Shown: one piece after another, positions 769-64,000 of the stretch | Layout: every line of letters starts with the position of its first letter | How positions within the stretch are numbered: the first letter of the stretch is position 1 | DNA from: Corallium rubrum | Taxonomy: Eukaryota; Cnidaria; Anthozoa; Scleralcyonacea; Coralliidae | Direction: 5' to 3' | Assembly (NCBI GenBank): GCA_964035015.1 | Contig: OZ036014.1 | Location: forward strand, 5,616,495-5,680,494 | DNA length: 64,000 bases | The notes under the pieces: generated by a model | What the model saw: only the letters and a program-made list of their open reading frames with translations | Told to the model about the DNA's origin: nothing | Database searches by the model: none | Program-made: the position numbers and the translations under genes

Positions 769-975
769 ACATAGCATATTCTAGGGATTTTTGGTGAAGG
801 AAAATTCGGGTGTAGAATATATACATTTTGAGACCAAACCGGGACCAGTTGCGAAAAATGCAACTACACAGGCCTTCCGGCAGGAATTGAAGCCACGACC
901 TTGCGATTCTAGTGCAATGCTCTGACCACTGAGCCACGGAGGCCGTTGCCGAGAGCTTGATCGCGAGTTCTGTAT
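769..975 (-). mobile_element. tRNA-derived SINE, copy 1
   Basis: On the minus strand a 74-nt tRNA-like head (871-944) has a cloverleaf-like layout: D-arm GGCTCAGTGGTCAGAGC, a 7-nt anticodon loop reading AGA, and a T-arm with loop TTCAATT. The acceptor stem is mismatched (GGCCTCC against GGAAGGCC). A tRNA-unrelated body runs leftward to about 769. The same head plus body recurs on the plus strand at 10660-10855. Two copies with a shared non-tRNA body make this a SINE rather than a tRNA gene. The A and B box regions could still serve RNA polymerase III. Confidence 0.8.
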
Positions 976-4855: not shown

Positions 4856-4921
4856 ATGACTCGGTTTGGCTGTCAGAGACGTTCTTCCTGTCTGCTGAAC
4901 TTGTGCATAAACGCTCTTTTG

Positions 4922-4933
4922 TTTTGTCAACAG
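4922..4933 (+). promoter_or_regulatory. Probable 3' splice site before gene A exon
   Basis: A pyrimidine-rich stretch ends in CAG at 4931-4933, 57 nt before the chosen ATG. The position fits an intron in the 5' untranslated region. Confidence 0.45.
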
Positions 4934-4990
4934 ACGGTCCACGAGACAACGAGACTTTGGAAACGGCTAGCTTGGTCGACTTCAGTCATC

Positions 4991-10668: not shown

Positions 10669-10855
10669 CTCGCGATCATGCTCTCGGCAACGGCCTCCGT
10701 GGCTCAGTGGTCAGAGCATTGCACTAGAATCGCAAGGTCGTGGGTTCAATTCCTGCCGGAAGGCCTGTGTAGTTGCATTTTTCGCAACTGGTCCCGGTTT
10801 GGTCTTAAAATGTATGATATTCTACACTCGAATTTTCCTTCACCAAAAATCCCTT
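10664..10855 (+). mobile_element. tRNA-derived SINE, copy 2
   Basis: The tRNA-like head at 10692-10765 (74 nt, anticodon loop AGA) is followed by the same body as copy 1, including TTTTCGCAACTGGTCCCGGT and CACCAAAAATCCC at the distal end. The 5' leader ACTCGCGATCATGCTCTCGG is also shared with copy 1, so the element begins before the tRNA-like part. Confidence 0.8.
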
Positions 10856-12728: not shown

Positions 12729-13323
12729 TTATTATTATTATTATTAATTTTGTGATATGCTCCCTTTCGGGCTTTTCAGCATAAAATTACAAGTTTAACC
12801 ACGTAAAATTATTAAAAATAGTTACCCTTAATACAAATTTCAATTTATTTAATCTAATCTACTATATAAATATTATAAAACCTTTTTAACTATTTAGTAA
12901 AAATTTCTTAAGTCCCAATTTAAAAGTCTTAATGTCCTTTATTGACTTTAGTGTTTGGTCGAGTTTATTCCACAGAGCTACACCACGATAGTAGAATGTT
13001 CTTTGCCCTGTACTTGTTCTAAATTTAGGAATATCCAAATCATGCATGATGCGGGTATGGTGATCATGGGTTTCATACCGATGATTAAATTTCTCACTTA
13101 AACAAGCAGGCGCTAGGCCGTTGATGCACTTAAACATCAATAATATATCTTTATACTGTAGTTGTCGGTCTACAGTTAGCCATTTCAAGTCCGTTAGCGC
13201 TGGAGTTATGTGTTCATATTTATTAATATTCGTAATTATTCTCGCGGCAAAGTTTTGGATCAATTGGAGCTTCTTAATGTTCTTGACTGTGATGTTTGCC
13301 CAGACCGAAGAGCAATAGAACAA
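12729..13323 (-). pseudogene. LINE 3' remnant (reverse transcriptase tail)
   Basis: The minus-strand frame 13323-12886 encodes 145 residues with the order typical of the region after the reverse transcriptase core in Jockey/CR1-like non-LTR retrotransposons: LQLIQNFAARII, then LKWLTVDRQLQYKDILLMF, then ING-AP, then a late WNKL and a Lys-rich end. It starts mid-protein, so the endonuclease and catalytic core are missing, a 5' truncation as usual for LINEs. The sequence beyond the stop to 12729 resembles a 3' UTR and ends in an ATT/AAT triplet tail, the expected terminus. The exact clade is not assigned. Confidence 0.75.
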
Positions 13324-13491
13324 CTTGCTTAAAACCAGAGATTCTATAATAACCTTTTATAGATTCTAGATTTTGTAGATTCTATAATTTACCTTCTTAC
13401 ATCGACTACTAAGGACTTATTAACCGAGTGCGAGGATAAAACCGAGGGCAAATACTTTCCCGTACAGACCGAGCAAACGAGGTTAATAAGG

Positions 13492-17008: not shown

Positions 17009-20000
17009 ATGGAACCCAAAGAGAAGAAGGCATTGTCCAAGGAGACAGACATTAATGATTTCGAAGCAGAGAGGGAACTGATCGAGGAGAAACACAGAAC
17101 TGAAGTACTAAACCTTTTGAAGTGTTTTGAGTTTGAAAGAACGGATATGGAGACAAGATTTCAAGAGCGACTGGAAGAGAAGGACAACGATGGAGTTTCC
17201 AACGAGACAAGCGCGAACCAAAATGAAGTAGACGAACTGAGAGAGAAGCTAGAGCGAGAAAAGGATGAGCTGCAAAAGCAATTTGATAAAGAGAAAGCTT
17301 CCCTTATGGCCAGACTAAAAAAACTCGAAGGAGAGGTGGTTGTTAAAAGGGAGAGCGACTCTGTTGGTCAATATGAAGATGATCATACTTTATCGCGTGA
17401 ATTTGAAGTCGATAAACAGCGTACAGAAGAGAAGGGTTTGGCTGTTTTAAAAGCAACTGATAGTCACCATGAATGGACAGGAGAAAGTTCCGCCCAAGAA
17501 GTACAAAAAGATGAAAGCAAAACAAGCACTTCAATCGCATCACGTAACACCACAGGAGACCAGCAGTTTTATAGCGAAGATTACAACTCAAGGTCGAGCG
17601 AAAACGGCATGAAATCTTTGAGAGAACTAAAAGAGGAAAACCACAACTTAAAACAGGAACTCGACGACCAGTCTAGCGAGATAGGAGAGCTACAAAATCA
17701 AGTAAACCACCTGAGTAGAAAACTTGATGATATCCGAGAGCTGTTCGAAAACGAAGACGTCAACGCCGCAGATAAAAAGGAAAAACTTCGGGAACTTTTT
17801 GAAGGATGTTCCACGGAATTGACCGATGGACGCCATGAAACCAGAAAGGAACACGGAGAGGCCAGTTCTCCTGTTGGACAGCAACACCGGAGTAGCTCTG
17901 AGATGAGTTTTGTATTGGAGGAATTGAACATGGAGAATGATGATCTAAAGAATAACGTTTACGAAATGGAACAGAAGATTCGTAGAACTATTGAAGAAAA
18001 CGAAATGCAGAGGTCCGTTTTTAAAGAAAAACTTGACGGAATTGTAGAAAAATTGATGGAGAGTCAGTCTCAGGAAGGCCAGAATTCTCAACTGAATCAA
18101 AGTGTTGTGGAGAATACAATTAATGAATTGAGAGGTATTACGTTGGAGGAAACTTCACAGAAACTTTTACTAGATTACGTCAACATTGTTCTAAGTCAAA
18201 AGTCTGGTTCCCACTCTTCTGATGTGTTTGATGTTAATTTACTGCACGAAATACAATCTCTTGAACAACTTCTGGATCTCGAGATATTCGATGGACGCGT
18301 TTTCGACGAAGAAATGAAAGACGAAGTCAAACAAGTACTCCACGACAAAGAAAGAGAGTTAATGCTTGCTTACACAGTTGAGAAGCTTCGCGAAGAACTC
18401 CGAAACCGCTTTGCAACTGAGACAGTGCTGGTGGAGTTACAAAAAGAGCGGGAAAAAGATTACTTTGTTAACCAGGCGGTAAACGAGGTCTTGAAGGAAC
18501 ACTTGGGGATATCGACTACGGGAAAGGATAGCGAAGAACTTGAGAAGGCTTTGGCAAACAATTCGCAAGAAGAGCCAAGAATTCCGGAGGAGAAAATTGA
18601 GAACGGAGCAATTGATGTGGATGCTTTGAAGGCAGAGAAAGAAGAACTCGAAGGAACTTTACAGGAATTGCAAGATTATTTCCAAAAAGAAAGACAGGAT
18701 TGGCTTCAGAAGCTTCAAAGTCCACTCCAAGAGGGCTCCACACAAGTTGACAACAAGGATAAAGTTATTCAAAGCCTTCGTGCTCAGAAAGTTATGGAAC
18801 AAGTTTTGAATACCGAGCGGTTTTATTTGAGTCGTTTGTACTATATAGAGATGAAAGAGGAGTTAGATGCGTCCTTGAAGCAGTATCGGTTTGAACGAGG
18901 CGGGAAACTCGAGAAAGAAAGAGTCACCGAAGCTTGGAGACACCATGTCGAAGTAGGAGAGCTTTACCAAGAGATTCTACAAAAAGAAACCGAGAGCATT
19001 GAGAACATGAAAGAGAAAATTAACGAAGAGGAGAGGAAACCAGAAATTTGTGAATCACCGGAGGTCTCTTCTGAAGATGAATTGAGAAGAGAGAATTTGA
19101 GATTAGAGATTCAGCTGCCTATGAAATTAGAACTTGCTGAACTTCAGCGGAAGCGATGTCGTGAGCATAAAGCTGTTAGCTTGATTCTCGAGCAAGCCGT
19201 GACCGCCGTTGAGACGGCTGTACAAGAACAAGACGCCTTTTTGGTCAACAGCGATTTCCTTCAGCGCAGGTCCAGTTGGCCGAGTAGCGATGATGACACC
19301 GCGATGCCGGAAGGAGATTTTACGGAGCCGCGGTTCTCTGGAGCAACGAGAAGCGACAAAGAAAATAAGAATGGAAATGGAGGAGCCGTGAATGAAAGCA
19401 GCATTAACAGCAAGGGTGCACTGAGAAAAGCTTTAGGAAGATTGCTTGAAAAACTACTGAATGAGCAGCCAGTGAAAGATTCTGAACCTGATTCTTGCGC
19501 AAGCGATAGCGACTTCAGCGAGTTGGAGGACTCTCCGAGAAGGGATCAATCCAATGAGGACGAAATCACAGTGAAGAAGAAAAAGTTTGAAACGAGTGAT
19601 GTTTTATCTGACGATAGTCCACGAGGAAGTCTTTCCGACTTAGAAACCGAAGCTGCAAAAGAAGTTGAGACTGAAGGTTTGGAACTCAAAGATACGCCAA
19701 AGATTTCTAAAGTTACGTCGAAGAGTTCCGAAGATGTGTCGAGAGATTCCGAAGATATGTCGAAAGATCCCGAAAGTATGTCGAAGAATTCCGAATATAT
19801 GTCGAAGGATTCCGAATATAAGTCGAAAGATTCCGAGGATATGGCGAAGGATTCCGAAGATATGTCGAAAGATGCGGAAGGTGTATCGAAGGTCTCCGAA
19901 AATATGTCGAAGGATTCCGATGATGCATCGAAGAATTTTCAAGATTTGTCGAAGGGCTCGGTTCCAGAAATCTTCAAACTCTCGCCGAAGATTGATAATC

Positions 20001-23000
20001 TCTTGAATATTGAAAGATTCAACATGAGCCGTTTGCTTCGAGACGAGTACGTCGATAAGATCCGACGAGGGAGACGGAAAATTCGTCGGATGAGGGCACA
20101 GAATTACGACAACAACGAGGAGTTATTGACAAAATTCAAGGAACACGTTGGTTTGTTGCTAGACAAAACGGATTTGGGAGAAGGTGGAGAAGAAAAAGGA
20201 GATGTTGAGAAGAAAAGGTTAGCTTCAACGCCAAGTGATGACAGTGGCATTGCTGATTTCGTCGAATCTGATAAAGACGCCGTAGTTAGAAAATACAAGG
20301 AGCTGTTGGAGAAAGCGAGGAAAGATTTAAACCGGGCTCACACGGCGATGAGGGAAAAACCTGGAAGACGGAATGAGAATGAAATAAGCAACGAACTTGG
20401 AGCGATGAAGAGGAATTTGAAAGAAAAAGAGAACGACTTAAAAGAATTAGGGGATAAGCGCGTTGGACTTGAGAATGAACGCAAGGTCTTGCTTGGTAAG
20501 ATAAAAAGTGCTACAGATCCTACGAATGGAGCGGCTACAGACAGCGAGACAAAAACAGGCGACGATTTTGGACAAGTAGTGAAAGAGCAACATGATTCTC
20601 AATCTCCGTTGGCAATTGAGATTAAAGCTCAAACTGATCAGCAGTTATCTCAATTGGAACCATTCTCGGGAGCGATTGGAGCTGATGATGGTGCAAAGCT
20701 AGCTGAAGCTTCACCAGAGGCTGGTGTTCCTGAAGATCGTCACAACAGAATTGATTTGCGTCATCGAGGTTCAGCCGATAAAGGTTTCGATACTACAACA
20801 GGGAGTGAAGTAGAAAGGGGATTATTGGTGAGAGAAAACGAAGAACTAAAGGGGAAACTAGATGCATTGGAGGAAGAAATGGAAAGCAAAGATAAAGAGT
20901 TTTATGATGAAAATAAAAAGAAACAGGATGAAGTGAACGAGCTACAAAGAAAGTTGGTCGAAGGGACGGGGGGCGAGGATATACTACTCGGCTTACAAGA
21001 AAAATTGAACGAAGCTAACGAAGAGAAAAGGAATTTAGAAGCCAAATGCTCGGAAATTGAAAAGCGTAAAAGACAAGGAGAACTTGGCAGTGAGAAAAAA
21101 TATGAAGAAGACGCTGCAAAAGAGATAACAAGACTTCAAAATGAAAATGCGATTTTGGAGAACGAGATTAAACTGAAGCAAGAGAAAGTCGATGAGCTTC
21201 GAGGGAAGATGATGGAAGGAGTTGACGGAGAAGAAATTGTGAAAGAACTTCAGCTTGAATTGAAAGAACTGAATGAAAAGAATAGACTGTTAGAAAATAC
21301 AAACAAAGAATTGGCCCAAGGAGGCAAGGGACACTTCTCTGAGGTGGACAAGGTGAAAGTTATCGCTGAATTGGAGCGGGAAAATAAAACTCTAGGACTT
21401 GAAAATCAAGAGACGACTAAAAAACTAGAGAAATTACAACAGGATGTATTAGCAGGAACGGGAAGTGAGGCAATACTCGAAGGACTTCAAGACGAAGTGA
21501 AGGACTTGAAAGTTGTAAACAAAGATTTGGAGAAGAAATGTTATGATCTTGAAGAAAACAAGAAAGAAACTTATGGTTTTAAGGGGAAAGATATGAAACA
21601 ATTGGAAAAGGAATTGGAAAGAGCAAATAGAGAAAAAGAAAGATTAGATGTGGAGAACAAGAGTAAGGAGGAAGAAATCGCTGATCTTCAAAAGAAATTA
21701 GTGGAAGGAAGTGGAGGAGAAGAGTTGTTAGAAAATCTGCAACAACAAGTCAAGGAATTGAAAGACAAAGATGCTGAATTGGAAATGCATCGTCAAAATT
21801 TGGAAGATTTGAATGAAGAGCTAAAAAATAAAGAGATTGGTAATGGTGAAATGGGAAATGAGATCTCGAAGATCAAGGAAGAAAATGTTAAGTTAACTGA
21901 CGAGAATAAAACGAAGGACAGTGAAGTACGCGAGCTTCAAAAAGCATTAGTTGAAGGTAGTGGAGGAGAAGAGATTCTTCAAAAATTACAAGACAAGATT
22001 AAAGAAAGTGAAGAGAAAAACAAGATGTTGGAAAAGCAATGTAGAGATGTGAGCAACGATAATGAGGACCTGGAGAAGAAAGAAAACGAAGCCAGAAATG
22101 AAAAGAAAGAAAGGGCAACAGAACTCGCAAGAATAAAGAAAGAGAATGATTATTTGGAGCGTGCAAGTGAAGTGAAGACTGGTGAAATAACTAAACTTCA
22201 GGAGAAGTTGTTGGATGGAACTGGAGGTGAAGAAATTTTGAAAGATCTTCAAGGTCAGATGAAAGAATTGGAAGACATGAACAAGGAGTTGAGAAAGAAA
22301 TGTAATGAAATGGAAGCTCGTGAAGAAACGTCGAAAGACGATGAAGTTAACAAAGAGAAAGAATTGTCTGAATTGAAACGTAAAAACGAACGGTTACTGC
22401 TGGACAACAACGAGAAAGAAAAAGAGGTATCTGATCTTCAAAATAAATTAGTTGAAGGAACCGGAGGAGAAGAGTTGTTAGAAAGTCTGCAACAACAAGT
22501 CAAAGAATTAAAACAGAAGGATACTGAATTGGAAATACATTGTCAAAAATTAGAAGATCTGAATGAAGAGCTAAAAAATAAAGAGATTGGTAACACTGAA
22601 TTGGAAAAAGAGATCTCAAAGATCAAGAAAGAAAACGCTAAGTTAACTGATGAGAATAAAACGAAGGACAGTGAAGTACGCGAACTTCAAAAAGCATTGG
22701 TTGAAGGTAGTGGAGGAGAAGAGATTCTTCAAAAACTACAAGACAAGATTAAAGAAACTGAAGAGAACAACAAAATGTTGGAAAAACAATGTAGAGATCT
22801 GAGCAACGATAATGAGGACTTGGAGAAGAAAGAAAACGAAGCCAGAAATGAAAAGAAAGAAATGGCAACAGAACTCGCAAGAATAAAGAAAGATAATGAT
22901 TATTTAGAGCGTGAAAGTCAGGCTAAGACTGGTGAAATATCTAAACTTCTGGAAAAGTTGTTGGATGGAACTGGAGGTGAAGAAATCTTGCAAGAACTTC

Positions 23001-26000
23001 AAGGTCAGATGAAAGAATTGGAAGACATGAACAAAGAGTTGAGAAAGAAATGTAATGAAATGGAAGTTCGTGAAGAAACGTCGAAAGGAGATGAAGATGA
23101 TGTTAATAAAGAAAAAGAGAAAGAGTTGTCTGAATTGAAACGTAGAAACGAACGGTTACTGGTGGACAACAACGAGAAAGAAAACGAGGTATCTGATCTT
23201 CAAAAGAAATTAGTGGAAGGAACCGGAGGGGAAGAGTTGTTAGAAAGTCTGCAGCAACAAGTCAAGGAATTAAAACAGAAGGATACTGAATTGGAAATAC
23301 ATTGTCAAAAATTAGAAGATGTGAATGAAGAGCTAAAAAATAAAGAGATTGGTAACACTGAATTGGAAAAAGAGATCTCAAAGATCAAGGACGAAAATGC
23401 TAAGTTAACTGACGAGAATAAAACGAAGGACAATGAAGTACGCGAGCTTCAAAAAGCATTAGTTGAAGGTAGTGGAGGAGAAGAGGTTCTTCAAAAACTA
23501 CAAGACAAGATTAAAGAAACTGAAGAGAACAACAAAATGTTGGAAAAGCAATGTAGAGATCTGAGCAACGATAATGAGAACTTGGAGAAGAAAGAAAACG
23601 ATGCCAGAACTGAAAAGAAAGAAATGGCAACAGAACTCGCAAGAATAAAGAAAGAGAATGATTATTTAGAGCGTGAAAGTGAAGTGAAGACTGGTGAAAT
23701 AACTAAACTTCAGGAGAAGTTGTTGGATGGAACTGGAGGTCAGGAAATTTTGAAAGATCTTCAAGGTCAGATGAAAGAATTGGAAGACATGAACAAGGAG
23801 TTGAGAAAGAAATGTAATGAAATGGAAGCTCGTGAAGAAACGTCGAAACAAGATGAAGATGATGTTAATAAAGAAAAACAGAAAGAGTTGTCTGAGTTGA
23901 AACGTAAAAACGAACGGTTACTGGTGGAAAACAACGAGAAAGAAAAAGAGGTATCTGATCTTCAAAAGAAATTAGCGGAAGGAAGTGGAGGAGAAGAGTT
24001 GTTAGAAAGTCTGCAGCAACAAGTCAAGGAATTGAAAGACAAAGATGCTGAATTGGAAATACAGTGTCAAAATTTGGAAGATTTGAATGAAGAGCTAAAA
24101 AATAAAGAGATTGGTAACACTGAATTGGAAAAAGAGATCTCAAAGATCAAGGAAGAAAATGCTAAGTTAGCTGATGAGAATAAAACGAAGGACAGTGAAG
24201 TACGCGAGCTTCAAAAAGCATTGGTTGAAGGTAGTGGAGGAGAAGAGATTCTTCAAAAACTACAAGACAAGATTAAAGAAACTGAAGAGAACAACAAAAT
24301 GTTGGAAAAGCAGTGTAGAGATCTGAGTAACGATAATGAGGACTTGGAGAAGAAAGAAAAAGATGCCAGAACTGAAAAGAAAGAAATGGCAACAGAACTC
24401 GCAAGAATAAAGAAAGAGAATGATTATTTGGAGCGTGAAAGTCAAGCCAAGACTGGTGAAATAACTAAACTTCAGGGGAAGTTGTTGGATGGAACTGGAG
24501 GTGAAGAAATCTTGCAAGAACTTCAAGGTCAGATGAAAGAGTTGGACGACATGAACAACGAGTTGAGAAAGAAAAATAACGAAATGGAAGCTCGTGAAGA
24601 AACGTCGAAAGACGGTGCAGTTAACAAAGAGAAAGAGTTGTTTGAATTGAAACGTAGAAACGAACGGTTACTGGTGGACAACAACGAGAAAGAAAACGAG
24701 GTATCTGATCTTCAAAAGAAATTAGTGGAAGGAACCGGAGGGGAAGAGTTGTTAGAAAGTCTGCAGCAACAAGTCAAGGAATTAAAACAGAAGGATACTG
24801 AATTGGAAATACATTGTCAAAAATTAGAAGATGTGAATGAAGAGCTAAAAAATAAAGAGATTGGTAACACTGAATTGGAAAAAGAGATCTCAAAGACCAA
24901 GGACGAAAATGCTAAGTTAACTGACGAGAATAAAACGAAGGACAATGAAGTACGCGAGCTTCAAAAAGCATTAGTTGAAGGTAGTGGAGGAGAAGAGGTT
25001 CTTCAAAAACTACAAGACAAGATTAAAGAAACTGAAGAGAACAACAAAATGTTGGAAAAGCAATGTAGAGATCTGAGCAACGATAATGAGAACTTGGAGA
25101 AGAAAGAAAACGATGCCAGAACTGAAAAGAAAGAAATGGCAACAGAACTCGCAAGAATAAAGAAAGAGAATGATTATTTAGAGCGTGAAAGTGAAGTGAA
25201 GACTGGTGAAATAACTAAACTTCAGGAGAAGTTGTTGGATGGAACTGGAGGTCAGGAAATTTTGAAAGATCTTCAAGGTCAGATGAAAGAATTGGAAGAC
25301 ATGAACAAGGAGTTGAGAAAGAAATGTAATGAAATGGAAGCTCGTGAAGAAACGTCGAAACAAGATGAAGATGATGTTAATAAAGAAAAACAGAAAGAGT
25401 TGTCTGAGTTGAAACGTAAAAACGAACGGTTACTGGTGGAAAACAACGAGAAAGAAAAAGAGGTATCTGATCTTCAAAAGAAATTAGTTGAAGGAACCGG
25501 AGGAGAAGAATTGTTAGAAAGTCTGCAACAACAAGTCAAGGAATTGAAACAGAAGGATACTGAATTGGAAATACAATGTCAAAAATTAGAAGATCTGAAT
25601 GAAGAGCTAAAAAATAAAGAGATTTGTAACACTGAATTGGAAAAAGAGATCTCAAAGATCAAGGAAGAAAATGCTAAGTTAACTGATGAGAATAAAACGA
25701 AGGACAATGAAGTACGCGAGCTTCAAAAAGCATTGGTTGAAGGTAGTGGAGGAGAAGAGATTCTTCAAAAATTACAAGACAAGATTAAAGAAAGTGAAGA
25801 GAAAAACAAGATGTTGGAAAAGCAATGTAGAGATGTGAGCAACGATAATGAGGACTTGGAGAAGAAAGAAAACGATGCCAGAAATGAAAAGAAAGAAATG
25901 GCAACAGAACTCGCAAGTATAAAGAAAGAAAATGATTATTTGGAGCGTGAAAGTCAAGCCAAGACTGGTGAAATAACTAAACTTCAGGAGAAGTTGTTGG

Positions 26001-29000
26001 ATGGAACTGGAGGTGAAGAAATCTTGCAAGATCTTCAAGGTCAGATGAAAGAGTTGGAAGACATGAACAAGGAGTTGAGAAAGAAAAATAACGAAATGGA
26101 AGCTCGTGAAGAAACGTCGAAAGAGGATGAAGTTAACAAAGAGAAAGAGTTATCTGAGTTGAAACGTAAAAACGAACGGTTACTGGTGGACAACAACGAG
26201 AAAGAAAAAGAGGTATCTGATCTTCAAAAGAAATTAGTTGAAGGAACCGGAGGAGAAGAGTTGTTAGAAAGTCTGCAACAACAAGTCAAGGAATTAAAAC
26301 AGAAGGATACTGAATTGGAAATACATTGTCAAAAATTAGAAGATCTGAATGAAGAGCTAAAAAATAAAGAATTAGGTAACACTGAATTGGAAAACGAGAT
26401 CTCGAAGATGAAGGAAGAAAATGCTATGTTAGCTGACGAGAGTAAAACGAAGGATAGTGAAGTGCGCGAGCTTCAAAAAGCATTGGTTGAAGGTAGTGGA
26501 GGAGAAGAGATTCTTCAAAAACTACAAGGCAAGATTAAAGAAACTGAAGAGAACAACAAAATGTTGGAAAAGCAATGTAGAGATCTGACCAACGATAATG
26601 AGGACTTGGAGAAGAAAGAAAACGATGCCAAAAATGAGAACAAAGGAATGAAAGTAGAAGTCGCAAGAATAAAGAAGGAGAATGATTATTTAGAGCGTGA
26701 AAGTCAGGCTAAGACTGGTGAAATATTTAAACTTCAGGAGAAGTTGTTGGATGGAACTGGAGGTGAAGAAATCTTGCAAGAACTTCAAGGTCAGATGAAA
26801 GAATTGAAAGACTTGAGCAAGGAGTTGAGAAAGAAAAATAACGAAATGGAAGCTCGTGAAGAAACGTCGAAAGAGGATGAAGTTAACAAAGAGAAAGAGT
26901 TGTCTGAATTGAAACATAGAAACGAACGGTTACTGCTGGACAAGAACGAGAAAGAAAAAGAGGTATCTGATCTTCAAAAGAAGTTAGTGGAAGGAACTGG
27001 AGGAGAGGAAATACTAGAGAATATCCAAGGACAGTTGAAGAAATTGGAAGAGAAAAATGAAAAGTTGGAGGCCGACTGTTGTAAGCTAGAGGATGAAAAC
27101 AAAAATCTACGAGGTGATGAAAGTAAAAGGGGGGACGAAAGAGATGAAATTTTAAAATTAAGGAAGGAAAACACAAGTTTAGTTGAAGAGAATGAAGAAA
27201 AAGACATTGAAGTACGTGAGCTTCAGAAGAAGTTAGTTGATGGCAGTGGAGGAGAAGAGATTTTAGAAAAACTGCAAGACAAAGTTCAAGAACTAGAAAC
27301 AAACAACAAAGCACTGGAGAAGCAAAATGGAGATTTGGATATTGCTAATCAGAGAATTGGAAAGAAGGACAAGAGTTTAAAGAATGAAAACAAAGAAATG
27401 AAAGAAGAAGTCGCAAGAATAAAGAAAGAGAATGATTATTTAGAACGTGAAAGTCAGGCGAAGAGTGATGAAATATCTAAACTTCAAAAGAAGTTGTTGG
27501 ATGGAACTGGAGGTGAAGAAATCTTGCAAGAACTTCAAGGTCAGATGAAAGAATTGGAAGACATGAACAAGGAGTTGAGAAAGAAAAATAACGAAATGGA
27601 AGCTCGTGACGAAACGTCGAAAGAGGATGAAGTTGAGAAAGAGTTGTCTGAATTGAAACGTAAAAACGAACGGTTACTGGTGGACAACAACGAGAAAGAA
27701 AAAGAGGTATCTGATCTTCAAAAGAAGTTGGTGGAAGGAACTGGAGGAGAGGAAATACTAGAGAATATCCAAGGACAGTTGAAGAAATTGAAAGAGAAAA
27801 ATGAAAAGTTGGAGGCCGAATGTTTTAAGCTAGAGGATGAAAACGAAAATCTACGAGGTGATGAAAGTAAAAGGGGAGACGAAAGAGATGAAATTTTAAA
27901 ATTAAGAAAAGAGACCACAAGTTTAGTTGAAGAGAATGAAACAAAAGACATTGAAGTACGTGAGCTTCAGAAGAAGTTGGTTGATGGGAGTGGAGGAGAA
28001 GAGATTTTGAAAAAACTGCAAGACAAAGTCCAAGAACTAGAAACAAACAACAAAGCACTGGAGAAGCAAAATGGAGATTTAGATATTGTTAATCAGAAAA
28101 TTGGAAAAGAGGACAAGAGTTTAAAGAATGAAAACAAAGAAATGAAAGAAGAACTCGTAAAAATAAAGAAAGAGAATGACTATTTGGAACGTGAAAATCA
28201 GACCAAGAGTGATGAAATATCTAAACTTCAGGAGAAGTTGTTGGATGGAACTGGAGGTGAAAAAATCTTGCAAGAACTTCAAGGTCAGATGAAGGAATTG
28301 GAAGACATGAACAAGGAGTTGAGAAAGAAAAATAACGAAATGGAAGCTCGTGAAGAAACGTCGAAAGACGATGAAGTTAACAAAGAGAAAGAGTTGTTTG
28401 AGTTGAAACGTAAAAATGCACGGTTACTGGTGGACAACAACGAGAAAGAAAAAGAGGTATCTGATCTTCAAAAGAAGTTAGTGGAAGGAACTGGAGAAGA
28501 GGAAGTACTAGAGAATATCCAAGGACAGCTGAAGAAATTAAAAGAGAAAAATGAAAAGTTGGAGGCCGACTGTTTTAAGCTAGAGCATGAAAATGAAAAT
28601 CTAAGAAGCGATGAAAGTAAAAGTGGAGACGAAAGAGATGAAATTTTAAAATTAAGAAAAGAGAACACAAATTTAGTTGAAGAGAATGAAACAAAAGACA
28701 TTGAAGTACGTGAGCTTCAGAAGAAGTTAGTTGATGGCAGTGGAGGAGAAGAGATTTTGAAAAAACTGCAAGACAAAGTTCAAGAACTAGAAACAAACAA
28801 TAAAGCACTGGAGAAGCAGAATGGAGATTTAGATATTGCTAATCAGAAAATTGGAAAAGAGGACACGAGTTTAAAGAATGAAAACAAAGAAATGAAAGAA
28901 GAACTCGTAAAAATAAAGAAAGAGAATGACTATTTGGAACGTGAAAATCAGACCAAGAGTGATCAAATATCTAAACTTCAGGAGAAGTTGTTGGATGGAA

Positions 29001-32000
29001 CTGGAGGTGAAAAAATCTTGCAAGAACTTCAAGGTCAGATGAAGGAATTGGAAGACATGAACAAGGAGTTGAGAAAGAAAAATAACGAAATGGAAGCTCG
29101 TGAAGAAACGTCGAAAGACGATGAAGTTAACAAAGAGAAAGAGTTGTTTGAGTTGAAACGTAAAAATGCTCGGTTACTGGTGGACAACAACGAGAAAGAA
29201 AAAGAAGTATCTGATCTTCAAAAGAAGTTAGTGGAAGGAACTGGAGGAGAGGAAGTATTAGAGAATATCCAAGGACAGTTGAAGAAATTAAAAGAGAAAA
29301 ATGAAAAGTTGGAGGTCGACTGTTGTAAGTTAGAGGATGAAAATGAAAATCTACGAGGTGATGAAAGTAAAACAGGAGACGAAAGAGATGAAATTTTAAA
29401 ATTAAGAAAAGAGAACACAAATTTAGTTGAAGAGAATGAAACAAAAGACATTGAAGTACGTGAGCTTCAGAAGAAGTTAGTTGATGGCAGTGGAGGAGAA
29501 GAGATTTTAGAAAAACTGCAAGACAAAGTCCGAGAACTAGAAACAAACAACAAAGCATTGGTGAAGCAAAATGGAGATTTGGATATTGCTAATCAGAAAA
29601 TTGGAAAGGAAGAGAAGAGTTTAAAGAATGAAAACAAAGAAATTAAAGAAGAAGTCGCAAGAATAAAGAAAGAGAATGACTATTTGGAACGTGAAAGTCA
29701 GACCAAGAGTGATCAAATATCTAAACTTCAGGAGAAGTTGTTGGATGGAACTGGTGGAGGTGAAGAAATCTTGCAAGAACTTCAAGGTCAGATGAAAGAC
29801 TTGGAAGACATGAACAAGGAGTTGAGAAAGAAAAATAACGAAATGGAAGCTCGTGAAGAAACGTCGAAAGTGGATGAAGTTAACAAAGAGAAAGAGTTGT
29901 CTGAGTTGAAACATAAAAACGAACGGTTACTGCGGGACAACAACGAGAAAGATAAAGAGGTATCTGATCTTCAAAAGAAGTTAGTGGAAGGAACTGGAGG
30001 AGAGGAAGTACTAGAGAATATCCAAGGACAGCTGAAGAAATTAAAAGAGAAAAATGAAAAGTTGGAGGCCGACTGTTTTAAGCTAGAGGATGAAAATGAA
30101 AATCTAAGAAGCGATGAAAGTAAAAGTGGAGACGAAAGAGATGAAATTTTAAAATTAAGAAAAGAGAACACAAATTTAGTTGAAGAGAATGAAACAAAAG
30201 ACATTGAAGTACGTGAGCTTCAGAAGAAGTTAGTTGATGGCAGTGGAGGAGAAGAGATTTTGAAAAAACTGCAAGACAAAGTTCAAGAACTAGAAACAAA
30301 CAATAAAGCACTGGAGAAGCAGAATGGAGATTTAGATATTGCTAATCAGAAAATTGGAAAAGAGGACACGAGTTTAAAGAATGAAAACAAAGAAATGAAA
30401 GAAGAACTCGTAAAAATAAAGAAAGAGAATGACTATTTGGAACGTGAAAATCAGACCAAGAGTGATCAAATATCTAAACTTCAGGAGAAGTTGTTGGATG
30501 GAACTGGAGGTGAAAAAATCTTGCAAGAACTTCAAGGTCAGATGAAGGAATTGGAAGACATGAACAAGGAGTTGAGAAAGAAAAATAACGAAATGGAAGC
30601 TCGTGAAGAAACGTCGAAAGACGATGAAGTTAACAAAGAGAAAGAGTTGTTTGAGTTGAAACGTAAAAATGCTCGGTTACTGGTGGACAACAACGAGAAA
30701 GAAAAAGAGGTATCTGATCTTCAAAAGAAGTTAGTGGAAGGAACTGGAGGAGAGGAAGTATTAGAGAATATCCAAGGACAGTTGAAGAAATTAAAAGAGA
30801 AAAATGAAAAGTTGGAGGCCGACTGTTGTAAGTTAGAGGATGAAAATGAAAATCTACGAGGTGATGAAAGTAAAACAGGAGACGAAAGAGATGAAATTTT
30901 AAAATTAAGAAAAGAGAACACAAATTTAGTTGAAGAGAATGAAACAAAAGACATTGAAGTACGTGAGCTTCAGAAGAAGTTAGTTGATGGCAGTGGAGGA
31001 GAAGAGATTTTAGAAAAACTGCAAGACAAAGTCCGAGAACTAGAAACAAACAACAAAGCATTGGTGAAGCAAAATGGAGATTTGGATATTGCTAATCAGA
31101 AAATTGGAAAGGAAGAGAAGAGTTTAAAGAATGAAAACAAAGAAATTAAAGAAGAAGTCGCAAGAATAAAGAAAGAGAATGACTATTTGGAACGTGAAAG
31201 TCAGACCAAGAGTGATCAAATATCTAAACTTCAGGAGAAGTTGTTGGATGGAACTGGAGGTGAAGAAATCTTGCAAGAACTTCAAGGTCAGATGAAAGAC
31301 TTGGAAGACATGAACAAGGAGTTGAGAAAGAAAAATAACGAAATGGAAGCTCGTGAAGAAACGTCGAAAGTGGATGAAGTTAACAAAGAGAAAGAGTTGT
31401 CTGAGTTGAAACATAAAAACGAACGGTTACTGCGGGACAACAACGAGAAAGATAAAGAGGTATCTGATCTTCAAAAGAAGTTAGTGGAAGGAACTGGAGG
31501 AGAGGAAATACTAGAGAATATCCAAGGACAGTTGAAGAATTTAATAGAGAAAAATGAAGAGTTGGAGGCTGACTGTTCTAAGTTAGAAGATGAAAATGAA
31601 AATCTACGAGGTGATGAAAGTAAAAGGGGAGAAGAAAGAAATGAAATGTCAAGGTTAAGAAAAGAGAACACAAATTTAGTTGAAGAGAATGGAGGAACGT
31701 CGAAAGAGGATGAAGGTGAAATTAACAGAAAAAGGGAAAAAGAGCTAGTTCGAATGAGAAATGAAATTAAGAGAATCAAGCTGGATAACAAAGAAAAAGG
31801 AGAGGAGATTATTGAACTTCAAAATAAGTTGATCGAAGGAACTGGGGCTGAAGAGGTACTGGAGGGTCTTCAGAATCAGGTGAAAAACTTGAAGGGAAAA
31901 AATAATGATCTAGAAACGAATTGTCGCGATTTGGAAGATGTTAATACTAGCCTGAAAGATCTTGAAAGTAAAGAACAAGATAATTTAGAAGAAATTTTTA

Positions 32001-35000
32001 AACTTAGAGAAGAAAACGAGGACTTAGTCGTTGAAAACAGAAAGAAAGACAACGAAATTCTGGACTTGCAAACGAAGTTGATCAGTGGAACAGGAGGAGA
32101 AGAAATTCTTCAACAATTACAGAATGAAGTTAAGCTATCTAAAGAAAAGAATGTTGAATTAAAGAAGCAATGTAGAGATCAAGAGAGAGCTGCTGGAAGG
32201 AGGAAAGAGGATGACAAAATATTGAATGAAATGGATAAAATTAAAAACGAAAGCCAACGTTTGGAAAGAGAAAATGAAGCGAAAACTAAAAAGATTGGAA
32301 AACTGCAACAGAATGTTGTGAAAGGAACTGGAAGCGAAGAAGTGGTAGAGGAACTTCAAAATAAAGTAAAGGAATTAGAAGATGCGAATAAACTGCTAGA
32401 AGAAACAATTAATTCTGAAGAGAACACAAAAGACTCGAAACAGACTATAGTTAAAGAAGGAAGACAGAAAAGAACACAACTTGGTCAATTAAAAAGCGAA
32501 AATGACAAGCTCGCGCTGAAGAACAACCGTAAACCAGAAGAAGGAAATACAAAAGGAACGAAGAGGACAGCTAAGAAAGCGAAGAAGGAAGGCAGGTTAT
32601 TAACAGAAAAGGGTGGACACCATGCAGGTTCGAGTGAAGACACAGCTGGCTTCGACGGAAATTTCGCCACGAAAGGGAACTCTTCAACTGATGACTCAAA
32701 ACCGAACGATAGGGAAGAGTTTGACGAAATTCCTAGCTACGACGAGTGTGTTGAAATTATCCCCAAAATCACAGAAGAACGTGATCATTGGAGGAAAAAG
32801 TATAAAGAGTTGAGGATGAAAGTCGGCGAGCAATTTGTCGATATTATTCCCGAAGTCTGGAGCGAGGAAGTGGAATTGGAGAACGAAAGAGACGAAACGT
32901 TGTCTCGGCTTTCTGAAGTGAAGAAAGAAATCGCTGAACGTGAAAGCTCACTTCTGAAGACAATGGCGGAAAATGAGAGACTTGAAAAAGAACTAGGCAA
33001 TGTTGGGGATCTGTTGGAGGATAATAAGGGACAGTTAGAGGATCTCAGGGGTCTTCAGGAACAAGAGGAGAAGAATACGAAGGAACAGTCAAGATTGAAG
33101 CAGTCTTTGGCAAACTTGGAAAGCAGTTACCTTGGCTTAGAGGATCTTAGTTTAGAAGAAGTGAGTGACGAAGATAAGGATGCAGAGTTTTGTAGTGATT
33201 TGGACGAAAGAAAAGAAAGAGTCGATCAAGTCTGTCAAGAAGTGGAACATCTTTTAGCCGAAGCAGAACAAAATTCGGAGAACAAGCGAAAAGATAAAAA
33301 CGGAGCCAGTGCCATGTTTGATAAAAAAGTTGAAATTAAGAGCGAAATTAAAAAACTAGAACGTGCTATCGAAGAATTACAGCAAGGTTCCTCCATTGGT
33401 AACAACTTAAGTCGGTCTTCGCGATTTTCCAAACATCTTGAAAGCGCCGGGAAACAGAATTCTCAGGATTCCGCCACACAAGATGAACTTGATAAAATAA
33501 GCGACGGAATTAGCGAGCTTCAATCGTCACTTGGGGCGTCAGGTGTTTCTAATGGAAGCGAAGTGGGTAATCTGGTTGCTCTAATGAAAGAAAAATCGAA
33601 ACTAGAAGACGAACTATCCCTCGCTGATAAAGCGTTGAACAAACTAGGCAAACGTGATTACGAGAGTTTATTAAAAGAACGAGAAAAACAAGAGAAAGTC
33701 GCGAAAAAACTGCTCGAACTTTCGCGTGAAAAAGAAACACTCGAAGGGGAATTTCAAGAAATTGAAGAACTTGTTAAAACCAAAGAGACAGATCTTTTGT
33801 CGTATTTTAATTCAAGCAAAGAGAAAGAACAACTTGGGGAGGATTCAACAGGAAAAAGGAAGTCCTCTTTAAGGAAAATGAGCGGCATTGAGGAAGATCC
33901 TGTGGCGATTTCATCTGAAGACAATAGTGTTAAAGATGAAAGAGAAAATTTGTTAAGCTCAGAAGGTGTTCTGGGTGTGAGCGAGGAACTAGGGTCACTG
34001 ATTCAGAAGAAAAGTTCATTGGCTGTTCGTTTAGAGTCTCTTGGTAAAGAGATCACTACGCAATCTCTAAAAGTTGAAAAATCCCTTCTGGGGGTAAAAG
34101 AAGATCCTTCAGTCGAAATAACTCCTGGTTCGAGTTATTCGTCCCTCGATGATCTAAGCCAAAGTCAGTTGTCAATCTTTGATGATTGTAACATGTTAGA
34201 CGAGCTGAGTTTGGCGACGGGGTTGGTTAAAGAGGAGAGACTCAAAAGAAAAGCTTCCCGAAAGACTCCCATGGCGAAACTCCTCAAAGAAAAAGCTGGG
34301 TTGGACAAGAAATTTAAAGATTTGGAGGGGAAAGTATTAGTACAAAATGCTAAAATCAAAAATGCTTTACGTGACGGAAAAGACCCTGGAAAATTTGGCG
34401 GGAAATTTGCACAAGCTGTCGAAGAACGGAAAAAAGTCGAAGACGAACTCACAAATGTCGCCGCCAAAATAGACGAATGTAAGCTGCAAAGCGACGAAGT
34501 CACAAATAAAGGGAAACTGGGTAAGAGGCGAGCGTCAACCGGAAGCCTGGGGAAGAATGCAAAGTCTTCTTCGGAGAAGAAAGTTGGGAAATCGCTGAGC
34601 AAAAACGATAAAAGACTATTGTTGTCACAACGTGAAAGTTTGACAAAGCAATTGGATGATGTGAAAAGAAAAATTGAAGATTTTAGTTTGGACTGTGATG
34701 ATGGTGGTCTCGAAGATTTCCCGGAAATGGCGGAAATGAGAAATACAGGAAGTTCTTATTCTGGCGCCGTGAGTGTTCTTCGAGCAGAGAAGGAAAAGAA
34801 GGAGGCGGTCTTGAGCGGATTGGAGAAAGATATTGAGCGAGAGAAAAATTCTAACAGTACAAAGGACGACGAGAAAGATTTACGAAAGAAAAGGAGAGCA
34901 GTGAAGGAGAAGATGGAAAGAATTCTAGAGGAACTCGAACACGAAAAGCAAAACTTGGATACGTTGAAGGATTCGATAACCAACGAAAATGAAACTAGTT

Positions 35001-38000
35001 TAGAAAAGGAACAACTTCTGAAAGATGATATCGCCGCTTTGGAAAGACTAAAAGAAGAATTAAGTAAAGAATTGATGGCGGGGAAGGATTCCTTACATAA
35101 ACAAACGACAACAAGTGGACAGGATTCAGAACAATTATCCAAAGAGTACCAAGAGTTTCTTAATCTTAAGAACGACGAAGAATATTTAGAGAAGAGCTTA
35201 GAGGATGTAAACAAAAGACTGTTAGCAAGGAAAGAGTGGGTTTCTGATTTTGAACAACCGAAAACCACAGTTGAGGTCGACGACAGTGATTTAGCTCAAT
35301 CGTATGGGGAGATTTTAAAACGGATGTCGGATGAGAAACTTAACATGGCCGACCTCATTCGTGAGCTGGAGGTTACCCAGGAAACGTTATCAAAAGAGCG
35401 GGAAATAACCGGAGAACTACTCGACTTAATTAAGTCGAGGGTTGGGAACGAGTTACTGGGAGCATTGACCGGTGATGGGTTGTTAAGTCCTTTGGCGCGA
35501 ACAGCTGAAATGCATTCCACGGGTGCTGAGGAATACCAAGAAGTAGCGAGCAAAGTCGAACACGATAGTGTTACAGTTGCAGAAATAATTGCCGATTACA
35601 AAAAAATAAATGCACTCTCGCAAAGGGAAAACCAAAAGCTTGTCAAAATGCTGGAATTAGTGAAATCGAAAATCGATGAAGATCTTTTCGAGTCGATTGT
35701 GAACCAAAAGCCATCTGAGGTCGAAGTTTCTAAGAAATACGAACTTTCTAAGATCTTGGAAAACAATAAAACGCTTTTTGAACAAATTGTAGCGAATACA
35801 AAAGCCGTGAGAGTTTTGGAAAATGAAAACGAAACGTTAAAAATGGAATTAGAGGGTGGAAGGGAAGTATTTGAGGAAAATAAGGAAATCAAGGAGAAAT
35901 TAGAAAATGCGAACAATGAAATTGGAATTCTTACGACCGAATTGGATGAAGTGAAGAAGGAGAAGAACGATGAGCTTGAACGAAACGCTGAAGATTTTGA
36001 ACAAATTGAGAAAGAGTTGGTATCGTGCAAAGAAATGCTAGAGGATCTTCAGGAACAGAATAAGTCGATTATGTCAAAGTTTGAAGATGCCACGAAGAGA
36101 CAAGATGAATTGAAAACTAACTTACAATATATGGAAGAAAAGAAGGACAGCTTGGAAGATGAAATTGAGGAAATTAATTCCAAACTCCAGGAAGCTGAAG
36201 AAATAAAAAACGAAGCAAAGAATGAGCTGCAAAAGTTTAAAGAATTAACCGAAGAAACGATAGCTGCGATGGAGACGGAAAAGAATGAAAGTGTTTCTAA
36301 ATTGGAGCTGATTGAGAAACTAAACGATCAAATGAAAAATGATTTAAAGAACGAACAAGAAACGAAAGAGGAGAACAAGGCATTGAAAGAAAAACTGACT
36401 GCTATGGAAAACGAAAACAAAGGTCTAACTACTAAATTGGAGGATGCCGAAAAAGAGAAATACAAAACGAAAGAAGAGTTACAACGGAATCAAGCTGACA
36501 TTGAGAAAGAAAACGAAGAAATACTTTGTAAATTAAAAGAGACGGAGAAAATAAACGAAGGATTGAAAAATGAATTGGAGTTGAACGAACGGTTAAAAGA
36601 GGAGAACATACGGATGAAAGATAAAATCGATACACTGGAAATTGAAGTAGATAACCTGAACAAGGAGATGACAGAAGAATTGGAAGCCATAGATGAGTTG
36701 AAGAAAGAAAATACTTCGATAAAGGAAATGTTAGATGTGTTAGAGAAAGAAAGCAATGAAGTAATTCCAGCGATGGATAGTCTTAAGAGAACGAACAAGG
36801 AGTTAGAAGACGAAATAGAATATTTACATAAAGAGGAAAAAGATTTTGAATCGATTCAAAAGAAGTTGACTGACGCTGAACGCGAAGTTGAACAGTTGAA
36901 AGAAGATTTAAAAGACTTTGAATCGATTCAAAAGAAGTTGGCTGACGCTGAACGCGAAGTTGAACGGTTGAAAGAAGATTTAAAAGATTTTGAGTCTGTT
37001 GAAAAGAAGTTGACTGGCGCTGAACGCGAAGTTGAACGGTTGAAAGAAGATTTAAAAGATTTTGAATCGATTCAAAAGAAATTGACTGGCGCTGAACGCG
37101 AAGTTGGACAGTTGCAAGAAGATTTTGAAGCGATTCAAAAGAAATTGACTGACGCTGAACGGGAAGTTGAACAGTTGAAAGAAGATTTAAAAGATTTTGA
37201 ATCTATTCAAAAGAAGTTGACTGACGCTGAACGCAAAGTTGAACAGTTGAAAGAAGATTTAAAAGGTTTTGAGTCTGTTCAAAAGAAGTTGACTGACGCT
37301 GAACGCAAAGTTGAACAGTTGAAAGAAGATTTAAAAAATTTTGAATCGATTCAAAATAAGTTGACTGACGCTGAACGCGAAGTTGGACATTTGAAAGAAG
37401 ATTTAGAAGGTTTAAAGATTGAAAAGGACGAATTAGATAATTATATTGGAACTGTTCTCCAACGAAACGTAACCGGTGGATTAAAGTCAGCCGTGGAAGA
37501 TTACAGCAATGATTTTAAAGAGATGGAGAAAGAAAATCACTCGTTAGCAATAGAATGTGATAATTTAAAAGAATTAAAACAAATTATCGGCAAAACTCTA
37601 GCTGAAAAGCTACTTAGTCTGTCTAAAGAACACCAAGGTAGCTTGGAAGACACTCAATCCGTTCCGAAATGCGTGGAGAAGGTTGTTAATCAACGAATTA
37701 CGTTGGCACGGGTTTTCGAGGATTACGAGAAAGACCTTGACACTGTAGAGCAACTTTTAGGCCAGGAATTGTTTAGCTGTATTCTAAACACGAGTAGTAC
37801 GTTAGAAAATGACGAAGATAAGAAATCACTGAGGATAATCAGCGAATTAAAAGACGGGAAAGATTTGACACAAATTGTGAAGGCCTATGAGGATTTGATT
37901 GAGTCTCAAGCAAATGAAATAAAATCGGCTGAAGCAGTTTTTGAAAAAGTCAAGACCTTGGAGGCAGAATTGGAAGACGTTCATAAACAGAATCAACGAG

Positions 38001-38962
38001 AGATCGAAGAAGCCGAAGACATGCTTCGTGAACAGCGAAATCAACACGAGTTAGACAAACAGAATTTGTTGGGACGTTTTAATGATGAGAAAAATAACAT
38101 GCAACATCAGATTGAACGAGAGAGGAATTCCATGGAGACAGCGATGCAGAATTTGATCAACGAGATCGTGCGCTTGAAGGAGGAGAGAAAAGAGATCAGA
38201 AGGAACAATCGGTTGGAGAAGGAAAAAATGGATCTGGCTTTTGAAAGGGAGCGAGCTGAATTGTATTCTAATAACGAGATTGTTAAGACGGATATCCAAG
38301 AAAAATTGGAAAAAGCATTTTTCGAAGTTTCACAGAAAGAGAAAGTTATGATGGACGAAAGAGAAAATGGACTAAAAGAAGAAGTGATGAAGTTGAAAAA
38401 TGAGAAAAAGGAGATGGCGGTTAAGGTTAAAGAAATGGAAACTAAATTGGAATACGAGCTGAACTTTTCTAAAGAGTCTGGTCAGGTCTGTGATTTGAAA
38501 GAGAAGGAGAAGGCTCGGGAAGAGATTAAGAATGAGTTCGAAGAAACGATGAAACAGGAGAAGAAGAAATTCCAAGATACATTGGTTTCGTTGAGACAAG
38601 AAATTGATCGGTTACAGCACGAACGGTGTAAAGCTTACGATGAACTCACTAATGATAGTACACTTAACGAGCAAACCGATCACTCTTCGGTACAAGAACT
38701 TCGCATTTACGAGCGACTCGAATCCGATTTCAAAGCAAAAATCCATTCGGAGAGAATCTCAATGGAGAATCGTATCAAAGAGCTGAGGAAGGAGAGGGAG
38801 GATTTGAACAAAGAAAAGCAGGAAATAAAAGGAAGGATGAGAAATCAACGTCTTGAGTTGAACAGGAAACACGAGAAAGAGAAAGAGGAGTTGGTTGAAA
38901 AATATCGAAATGAAATGAGAGCACTTAGAGAGCAACTTCACAAGAAAATGGCCAGGGAAATG
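17009..38962 (+). CDS. Gene B exon 1, 21,954 bp coding
   Basis: A single open exon of 7318 codons ending ...GCC-AGG-GAA-ATG before the donor GTAAGTTGG. Constant Lys/Glu/Leu heptads throughout and in-frame preservation through repeated indels (for example extra Asp-Glu-Asp codons near 23090) support genuine coding. Antisense open frames in this exon are Phe/Leu/Ser-rich shadows of Lys/Glu codons. No internal introns are apparent. Confidence 0.93.

Positions 38963-44543: not shown

Positions 44544-64000
<19,457 letters not shown>

Follow-up and report, generated by a model that had tools for sequence, protein, structure and literature searches.

Forty-six glycine hinges, probable structural joints, in a predicted giant coiled-coil protein of Corallium rubrum

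We analysed a stretch of 64,000 nucleotides from Corallium rubrum (GenBank assembly GCA_964035015.1, contig OZ036014.1, positions 5,616,495 to 5,680,494 of the forward strand), hereafter the window, in whose coordinates positions are given below. It contains a gene whose predicted product, a coiled-coil protein of ~7,375 residues, takes 7,318 of these from a single exon and includes an array of 46 units that each open with a glycine-rich hinge. The best overall explanation that we can offer, and in our judgement a reasonably likely one, is a very long coiled-coil protein of which about half is a jointed rod. An earlier note on this DNA had proposed that the glycine hinge is a functional joint in a helical rod. 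The structural part of that proposal stands, and we regard it as highly probable that the hinge is a structural joint. The evidence consists of a constant jump in heptad register at the hinge, a predicted helix break at every hinge that was modelled, and a ratio of nonsynonymous to synonymous difference proportions (pN/pS) between divergent units in which the hinge falls below the sequence on either side of it. The parts of the gene are as follows.

17009..38962, forward strand: giant coding exon of 21,954 nt and 7,318 codons, running from an ATG to a GTAAGT splice donor with no internal stop
17009..20950, forward strand: N-terminal hinge-free part, with no Pfam match above cut-off and no hinge match
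20951..32560, forward strand: array of 46 hinge units, each unit starting four residues before its first hinge Gly; the array end is nominal
20951..21694, forward strand: three divergent leading units of 85, 79 and 84 residues
21695..26980, forward strand: block 1, triplets 1-7 of an A-B-C higher-order repeat
26981..31477, forward strand: block 2, triplets 8-13 of the A-B-C higher-order repeat
31478..32560, forward strand: trailing units 43-46, divergent from 44 onward
32561..38962, forward strand: C-terminal hinge-free coiled-coil part, with no hinge match
40913..41086, forward strand: predicted last exon with acceptor TTTCTTTGTATAATACAG, phase 0, comprising 57 codons and a TAA stop

A glycine-rich hinge opens each of 46 units

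The first of the 46 hinge units starts at 20951 and the last at 32312, and the array comprises 3,870 residues in which E, K, L, N and D are abundant and Pro occurs once. The first hinge Gly is present in all 46 units, the S/T that follows it in 45, the second Gly in 45, the third Gly in 42 and the E in 43. Gly accounts for 134 of the 230 residues (58%) at the five G-T-G-G-E positions, compared with 2.4% in the remainder of the array. Exact copies of G[TS]GGEE number 34 in the coding frame, whereas the rest of the protein and the window's five remaining frames have none. Upstream of the hinge, LQ is present in 44 of the 46 units (LR once, LL once), and downstream it is present in 38, with IQ in seven and, in a unit that carries an extra Gly, LQ one residue later. 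An alignment of 17 of the 46 units has five invariant columns, namely L(-3), the first Gly, E(+8), Q(+15) and L(+28).

Units 4-42 form 13 A-B-C triplets, each of ~250 residues (~750 bp). The A unit has 83 residues and the B unit 87 in 13 of 13 triplets. The C unit has 80 residues in eight of 13, and the others have 84, 84, 84, 78 and 81, indicating that C tolerates insertions and deletions (indels). Across the array, unit lengths span 78-116 residues; unit 43, at 116, includes a hinge-free stretch. The earlier note had described about 46 sub-repeats that open with a G-[TS]-G-G-E-E hinge flanked by LQ and that cycle through three types in a fixed order in the core, and these features were all recovered. 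The lengths that it gave, near 83, 87 and 80, were exact for A and B but, for C, only in the eight triplets just mentioned.

The tripeptide RGD occurs in the charged internal loop of A-type units at 27110, 27128, 27854, 27872, 29354, 30857 and 31607, twice in units 25 and 28 and once in units 34, 40 and 43, probably by chance.

The heptad register shifts by three residues at the hinge

Heptad registers were assigned from hydrophobic positions on both sides of each hinge. We observed a register jump of +3 residues at 45 of the 46 hinges and of +4 at the single hinge with an extra Gly. The number of +3 jumps remained at 44-45 of 46 for scoring-window lengths of 18-28 and with hinge-adjacent residues omitted, and the +3 jump was present in all six outer divergent units. 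When the flanks were shuffled (1000 trials), any one shift reached at most 16 of 46. The inter-hinge length minus 3 takes six of the seven possible values modulo 7, with 35 of 45 being 0 or 3, indicating that the shift at the hinge stays constant without being imposed by a fixed repeat length.

Within units, the shift is 0 in 13 of 13 B units and +3 in 13 of 13 A units, and in the C units it is 0 in nine of 13, +4 in three and +5 in one. The body of a B unit is made up of 12 uninterrupted heptads and that of most C units of 11, while an A unit has 11 heptads and a second, internal +3 break. The array is in these respects built from periodic heptad blocks with a fixed register shift, as is a segmented coiled-coil scaffold, which is a kind of protein and not a homologous family.

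Predicted helix breaks at the hinges

Two models were made with AlphaFold. Model 1 represents one triplet with its flanks (335 residues) and was built from a 12-row alignment of the gene's own triplets. Its mean predicted local distance difference test score (pLDDT) is 58, and it has non-helical stretches at residues 44-47, 87-90, 127-130, 214-217, 253-258 and 295-297. Four of these six stretches are the four hinges of the model. The stretch at 87-90 coincides with the internal break of the A unit known from the register analysis, that at 253-258 is the indel-tolerant middle of C, and B is a single uninterrupted helix. Model 2 represents the divergent units 44-46 (31736-32446; 237 residues, 7 alignment rows) and has a mean pLDDT of 79. 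Its helix has three internal breaks, precisely at its three hinges and nowhere else. Thus, the non-helical loops at the hinge that the earlier note had recommended looking for are predicted at 7 of 7 modelled hinges in these two monomer models, always over G-[ST]. The broken residues are E/D/S-G-[ST]-G at five hinges, GTG at one and KGT at one.

History of the array and selection on the hinge

Over the DNA of A and B together (510 nt), triplets are 88-100% identical within block 1 and 92-100% identical within block 2, compared with 66-69% between the blocks. The pairs 3/5, 10/12 and 11/13 round to 100% over the same 510 nt, and the C units differ little between block 1 and block 2. These block identities suggest that the array probably arose by recent higher-order amplification of two diverged founders and that individuals are likely to differ in the number of triplets they carry. 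The calculated pN/pS values over A+B are 0.34 and 0.25 within the two blocks and 0.38 between them, which is as for a protein under constraint and suggests purifying selection. We also calculated pN/pS by divergence class for 990 pairs of 45 units, leaving out unit 36, which has the extra Gly; 4 of the 990 pairs fall outside the identity bands and are omitted from the classes. In the most divergent class (623 of the 990 pairs), the ten hinge codons have a pN/pS of 0.28, compared with 0.51-0.52 in the flanks.

These data bear on the possibility that the hinge is a relic of duplication, having been present in a founder unit and then copied by unequal exchange and conversion without any selected role as a joint. 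The near-identity of triplets within blocks, which includes the three pairs that round to 100%, is what such a history would leave, and the likeness of the C units between blocks points to conversion. However, the five invariant columns (L, G, E, Q, L) have persisted in 16 aligned units whose identity to unit 1 is no more than 24-37%, and all six outer units retain the +3 shift. Moreover, pN/pS at the hinge lies below that of the flanks in all three divergence classes, and only one of the 46 hinges is altered in length, whereas the body lengths drift. Taken with this evidence, a relic without a joint role appears unlikely.

The hinge as a putative helix-capping motif

The predicted breaks are placed as would be expected if the Gly C-caps one helix and an N-capping box, [ST]-x-x-E, starts the next. 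The pattern G-[ST]-x-x-[EDQ] is present at 44 of the 46 hinges, and an S/T with D/E at +3 is present at 42 of 46, compared with 52 of the 231 other S/T residues in the array (22.5%). Together with the models, the motif reads as a putative helix stop (Gly) followed by an N-cap ([ST]-G-G-E). An insertion of three residues into a heptad pattern is a stammer, for which the cited part of one report gives the highest strain seen until then in a continuous coiled coil, with a 3-10 segment taking it up (PMC4786415). In the part of a second report that concerns L1ORF1p, removal of the stammer stabilises the coil and abolishes retrotransposition (PMC5940361). The glycines at the hinge would relieve the strain of a stammer by means of a helix break.

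The hydroxyl residue could instead mark a recognition or switch site, at which phosphorylation of the looped-out joint would set stiffness or bind a partner at a spacing of 12-13 nm. The sequence [ST]-G-G-E-E contains S/T-x-x-E, which is the CK2-type pattern in its minimal form; the enrichment of S/T-x-x-[DE] at the hinges is as this idea predicts, and the hydroxyl residue is retained even though T and S swap. Nevertheless, helix N-capping alone accounts for the same pattern, and we consider a switch site quite unlikely.

Chain pairing

In the four heptads after the hinge, 150 of the 184 d positions are Leu and 53 of the 184 a positions are Asn; in the four heptads before it, the corresponding counts are 112 and 74, again of 184. 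Parallel dimeric zippers show this combination of Leu at d and Asn at a, and on this composition a parallel dimer is the arrangement towards which we lean. Pairing between units was compared using a crude home-made a-a'/g-e' score, applied to units 4-42 within blocks. The scores for block 1 are 6.8 for AA, 9.1 for BB and 6.2 for CC, compared with 3.5-4.5 for unlike pairs. Those for block 2 are 6.5 for AA, 8.5 for BB and 7.7 for CC, compared with 3.3 for AB, 4.9 for AC and 7.7 for BC, such that BC ties with CC. None of the upstream g-e' terms is positive, and they give like pairs no advantage. The like-with-like scores lend weak support to two chains lying in register. The suggestion that the hinge serves as a register marker is weakly supported: like units are clearly preferred in block 1, but C-C and B-C tie in block 2.

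Another arrangement would have segments pairing within one chain, in origami- or spectrin-like bundles, so that the array would be compact and not an extended rod. A precedent is the designed origami triangle 8P4Y, whose GSG joints, in the part of the report cited here, permit sharp vertices and even have part of the linker joining the helix (PMC10416210). 8P4Y was also the best match of the array in the Protein Data Bank (PDB): it was the sole phmmer match at 0.001 (E 1.2e-4), and it led a profile search at 9.2e-7, with the other 34 of 35 matches (E up to 1) starting from 0.0019 and being mostly coiled-coil pieces. On the other side, like-with-like pairing mostly scores higher in our crude score, which argues for two chains in register, and Leu at d with Asn at a is a parallel-dimer pattern. 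In addition, neither model predicts a bundle with confidence (predicted template modelling score, pTM, 0.28 in both). We rate the folded-back chain as improbable, lower than the switch site. A secreted or matrix protein with (D/E)GSG(G)EE as a glycosaminoglycan attachment site is very improbable: the B-type hinge, E/D-G-S-G-G-E-E, does resemble such sites, but Thr replaces Ser at 30 of the 46 hinges and the start of the protein has no signal peptide by eye.

A jointed rod of paired chains is the reading that we prefer, and several observations weigh against it. The +3 shift is also found at 391 of 2004 array positions away from the hinges, and among 3140 positions outside the array +3 is found at 623 and +4 at 597. 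The 46 units are homologous copies and hence not 46 independent confirmations. Model 1 is of low confidence and breaks twice away from the hinges, the pTM of both models is low, and both are models of monomers from alignments of copies from the same gene. The synonymous proportion, pS, is also reduced at the hinge, being 0.62 (0.46 for GTGG) compared with ~0.8, suggesting that codon preference or bias, or conversion, contributes to conservation of the hinge. Because L, I, V, M, F, A, Y and N raise the register score when they stand at a or d, the a/d composition is partly circular, and Lys occupies 45 of 184 d positions in the heptads before the hinge. Finally, the 8P4Y score sums four weak stretches (i-Evalues 0.35-11) that are each insignificant by themselves, with strong composition bias. 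A Foldseek search with model 1 placed 8P4Y first at E 0.37, with 274 matches at E up to 10 and none at 0.001, and the same search with model 2 returned no match.

Database searches and family membership

None of the matching Pfam or NCBIfam models describes the hinge repeat. The remark in the earlier note that no named domain with this pattern was known therefore holds for the hinge repeat in these two collections, while models of helical stretches, namely ERM_helical, GAS, PNGase_A_C and SH3_and_anchor, do score above cut-off over the array. ERM_helical (PF20492) reaches 148.9 and 87.8 bits, against a cut-off of 40, on repeated stretches of the array. It also reaches 54.4 bits in a 498-residue piece and is absent from two of two heptad-preserving shuffles of it, indicating that the likeness exceeds composition; it recurs because the unit recurs, and it concerns the helical part only. 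An ERM protein would combine a FERM domain with the helical domain and a C-terminal tail, and no FERM match was found. In 36299-38962, NPV_P10 is the sole Pfam model above cut-off (33.3 bits compared with 29.8). Filing the protein under ERM_helical, GAS, PNGase_A_C, NPV_P10 or SH3_and_anchor was rejected, since each spans a helical stretch only.

Rootletin (PF15035) had no match over the giant exon at E 0.01 or over the end pieces and the last exon at E 1. GRIP had no match over the giant exon at E 0.01, and the 57-residue last exon was without any Pfam match at E 1, although a domain that spans the exon junction could be missed. The intermediate filament rod (PF00038) and Myosin_tail_1 (PF01576) likewise had no match in the giant exon at E 0.01; the latter appeared below cut-off in a neighbouring exon (17.4 bits compared with 38.1). 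No S100 or EF-hand match was found in Pfam over the giant exon. Literature searches returned, in the portions of the sources covered, no description of a giant cnidarian coiled coil of this kind, and nothing relevant on capping motifs in coiled-coil hinges.

A triplet query against the host genome (474 Mb, 312 contigs; 150 of 209 first-look candidates scored) matched 17 places at E 0.001, all of them within the giant exon. A profile of the 46 units, run against six frames of 184 kb, gave weak matches outside the array in three open reading frames (ORFs), with whole-ORF E-values of 0.0014, 0.14 and 0.17 and alignments that lie outside the hinge columns. A degenerate DNA pattern for the hinge was uninformative, with 3 matches in the host genome (one in the window) compared with 13 for the reversed control. 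Among viral contigs, 120 pattern matches were obtained and none was confirmed. A single match to an exon of the GFP family is compatible with a cnidarian host without proving it.

Gene model and neighbouring genes

One frame is stop-free from 16991 to 38980, and its first ATG, at 17009, has an in-frame stop immediately 5' of it. The consensus donor GTAAGT follows 38962 in phase 0, after the codons GCC AGG GAA ATG. In this gene model, which is predicted from the sequence, the giant exon is probably joined by splicing to the short last exon, and non-coding exons further upstream are possible. Because no signal peptide is seen by eye at its start, the protein is taken to be probably intracellular and cytosolic; no transmembrane anchor is apparent by eye, and none of its domain matches points to a compartment. 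The acidic N-terminal part contains a short S-K-D-(S/P)-E-D-M-type repeat at 19689-19954, with periods of 21, 42 and 63 nt. Near the C-terminus there are eight tandem 24-residue repeats (36838-37413), each equal to three heptads plus 3, the same +3 as at the hinge, with most copies lacking glycine. The intron after the giant exon starts with ~1 kb of a degenerate GTCTAG-type simple repeat (39002-40072).

When the C-terminal 439 residues were searched against the genome, they matched their own two exons and one other place, at 61568-62377 in the window (27% identity, E 3.6e-13). This is an exon of the next gene downstream, and the two genes are probably tandem paralogues. Further coiled-coil reading frames lie on the same strand around the giant gene at 4841-6205 and 47365-62600. 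Others occur beyond the window, 4.0-4.8 kb upstream and, with one frame of 1,407 residues, 18.5-22.7 kb downstream. As read from these frames, the giant gene sits in a local cluster of predicted coiled-coil genes. Only the 61568-62377 exon is detectably related to it among the neighbours. An N-terminal likeness among the neighbouring coiled-coil genes, suspected by eye, was not borne out by blastp at E 0.01.

None of seven neighbouring ORFs yielded the hinge when tested with a position-specific scoring matrix (PSSM) built from 12 of the 46 units. Over nine sequences, these seven and the two non-array ends of the protein, no score exceeded -5.0, compared with 15.5 for the weakest unit, and in every case 21 or more of 300 shuffles scored as well, the next lowest count being 42. 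A candidate ancestral hinge, KLAQGSNAENE, in the neighbouring exon 47365-49839 was rejected: the best PSSM score, -15.6, lies elsewhere and was reached by 202 of 300 shuffles. At 47454-48500, a neighbouring exon has Pro-Met-Gly-Gly-rich tandem repeats (periods of 39, 120 and 159 nt) fused to coiled coil. Long, near-perfect simple repeats with units of 4-5 nt are present at 57505-58500, 62726-63495 and 52278-53053 (TTGTC, CAAA, CATTA), probably in introns of the downstream gene, and some are open in several frames. Two further features of the window are listed below.

871-943, reverse strand: tRNA-Ser(AGA) match
10693-10765, forward strand: tRNA-Ser(AGA) match

These matches have similar neighbouring sequence, as read in translation, and are possibly tRNA-derived short interspersed elements. 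A frame at 12886-13356 on the reverse strand resembles the end of a reverse transcriptase of the long interspersed element type.

Proposed mechanism and significance

In the mechanism that we propose, each helix would stop at the hinge Gly and the next would restart at once on the [ST]-G-G-E N-cap. Elbows of 3-4 residues outside the helix would then recur at intervals of ~12-13 nm, replacing a strained continuous stammer. Two chains would form a parallel in-register dimer, favoured by Leu at d and the frequent Asn at a, and the three unit types may hold the chains in register. A rise of 0.1485 nm per residue would give 12-13 nm for a unit, 37 nm for a triplet, about 575 nm for the array and, at full extension, no more than about 1.1 micrometres for the whole chain. 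The product would be a long bendable chain of stiff rods. It could form filaments or serve as a cytoskeletal scaffold or tether, a task that would call for length together with the capacity to bend or collapse, and its length would alter through gain or loss of 250-residue triplets. A long parallel dimer with joints would suit a tether, a mechanical scaffold or a filament of the rootlet kind, and we put forward a role of the jointed rod as mechanical scaffold or tether as a tentative possibility.

A common picture of the long coiled coil is that of a stiff spacer, in which an insertion of three residues is a rare and strained discontinuity. In this array, such an insertion looks as if it has been converted into a standard joint, used 46 times, with helix stop and restart included. 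If this is true, the array would give cell mechanics a natural jointed rod whose length can be tuned, and protein designers would have a part ready for use.

Comparison with known systems

Fused-type S100 and mucin genes also have a giant exon with recently amplified in-frame repeats, likely of variable number. The composition here is charged and helical, unlike that of mucins. SF-assemblin and rootletin of ciliary rootlets are, like the present protein, coiled-coil filament proteins. SF-assemblin has four heptads and one skip residue in a striated fibre, and so shares with the array heptad blocks with a fixed insertion; its skip is of one residue with a period of 29, and the part of the account cited here mentions no Gly hinge (PMC8435291). 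The golgin GCC185, as described in part of its report, is a long parallel coiled-coil dimer with an essential internal flexible region for which a Gly-Gly-Ser substitute is functional. However, its flexibility lies in two central stretches of 55 and 50 residues and not in a periodic three-residue joint (PMC4721967).

The stammers of L1ORF1p and of alpha/beta coiled coils resemble the hinge in the three-residue insertion, the local strain and a functional metastability, so far as the cited parts of the two reports extend (PMC5940361, PMC4786415). L1ORF1p differs in having a single stammer (M-E-L) that, in the same part of its report, stays helical as a 3-10 turn (PMC5940361), whereas the array has 46 periodic insertions that contain glycines and at which the helix would, as predicted, stop and start again. 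The origami triangle TRI-4SHbGCN (8P4Y) comes close in layout, with parallel coiled-coil dimer segments on one chain separated by GSG linkers in the cited part of its description (PMC10416210). It is artificial, with six segments on a 201-residue chain that folds back on itself, whereas the array has 46 natural units of 78-116 residues that are probably extended and pair between chains. The array could be a natural counterpart of modular coiled-coil origami, in which a helix that forms dimers would make up one evolvable block together with its C-cap Gly and a [ST]-G-G-E N-cap, the chain would be resized by copying 750-bp triplets, and the unit types would serve as register address labels; we offer this as a speculation, and a rather doubtful one. 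The resemblance to 8P4Y would in any case be one of analogy, with common descent not implied.

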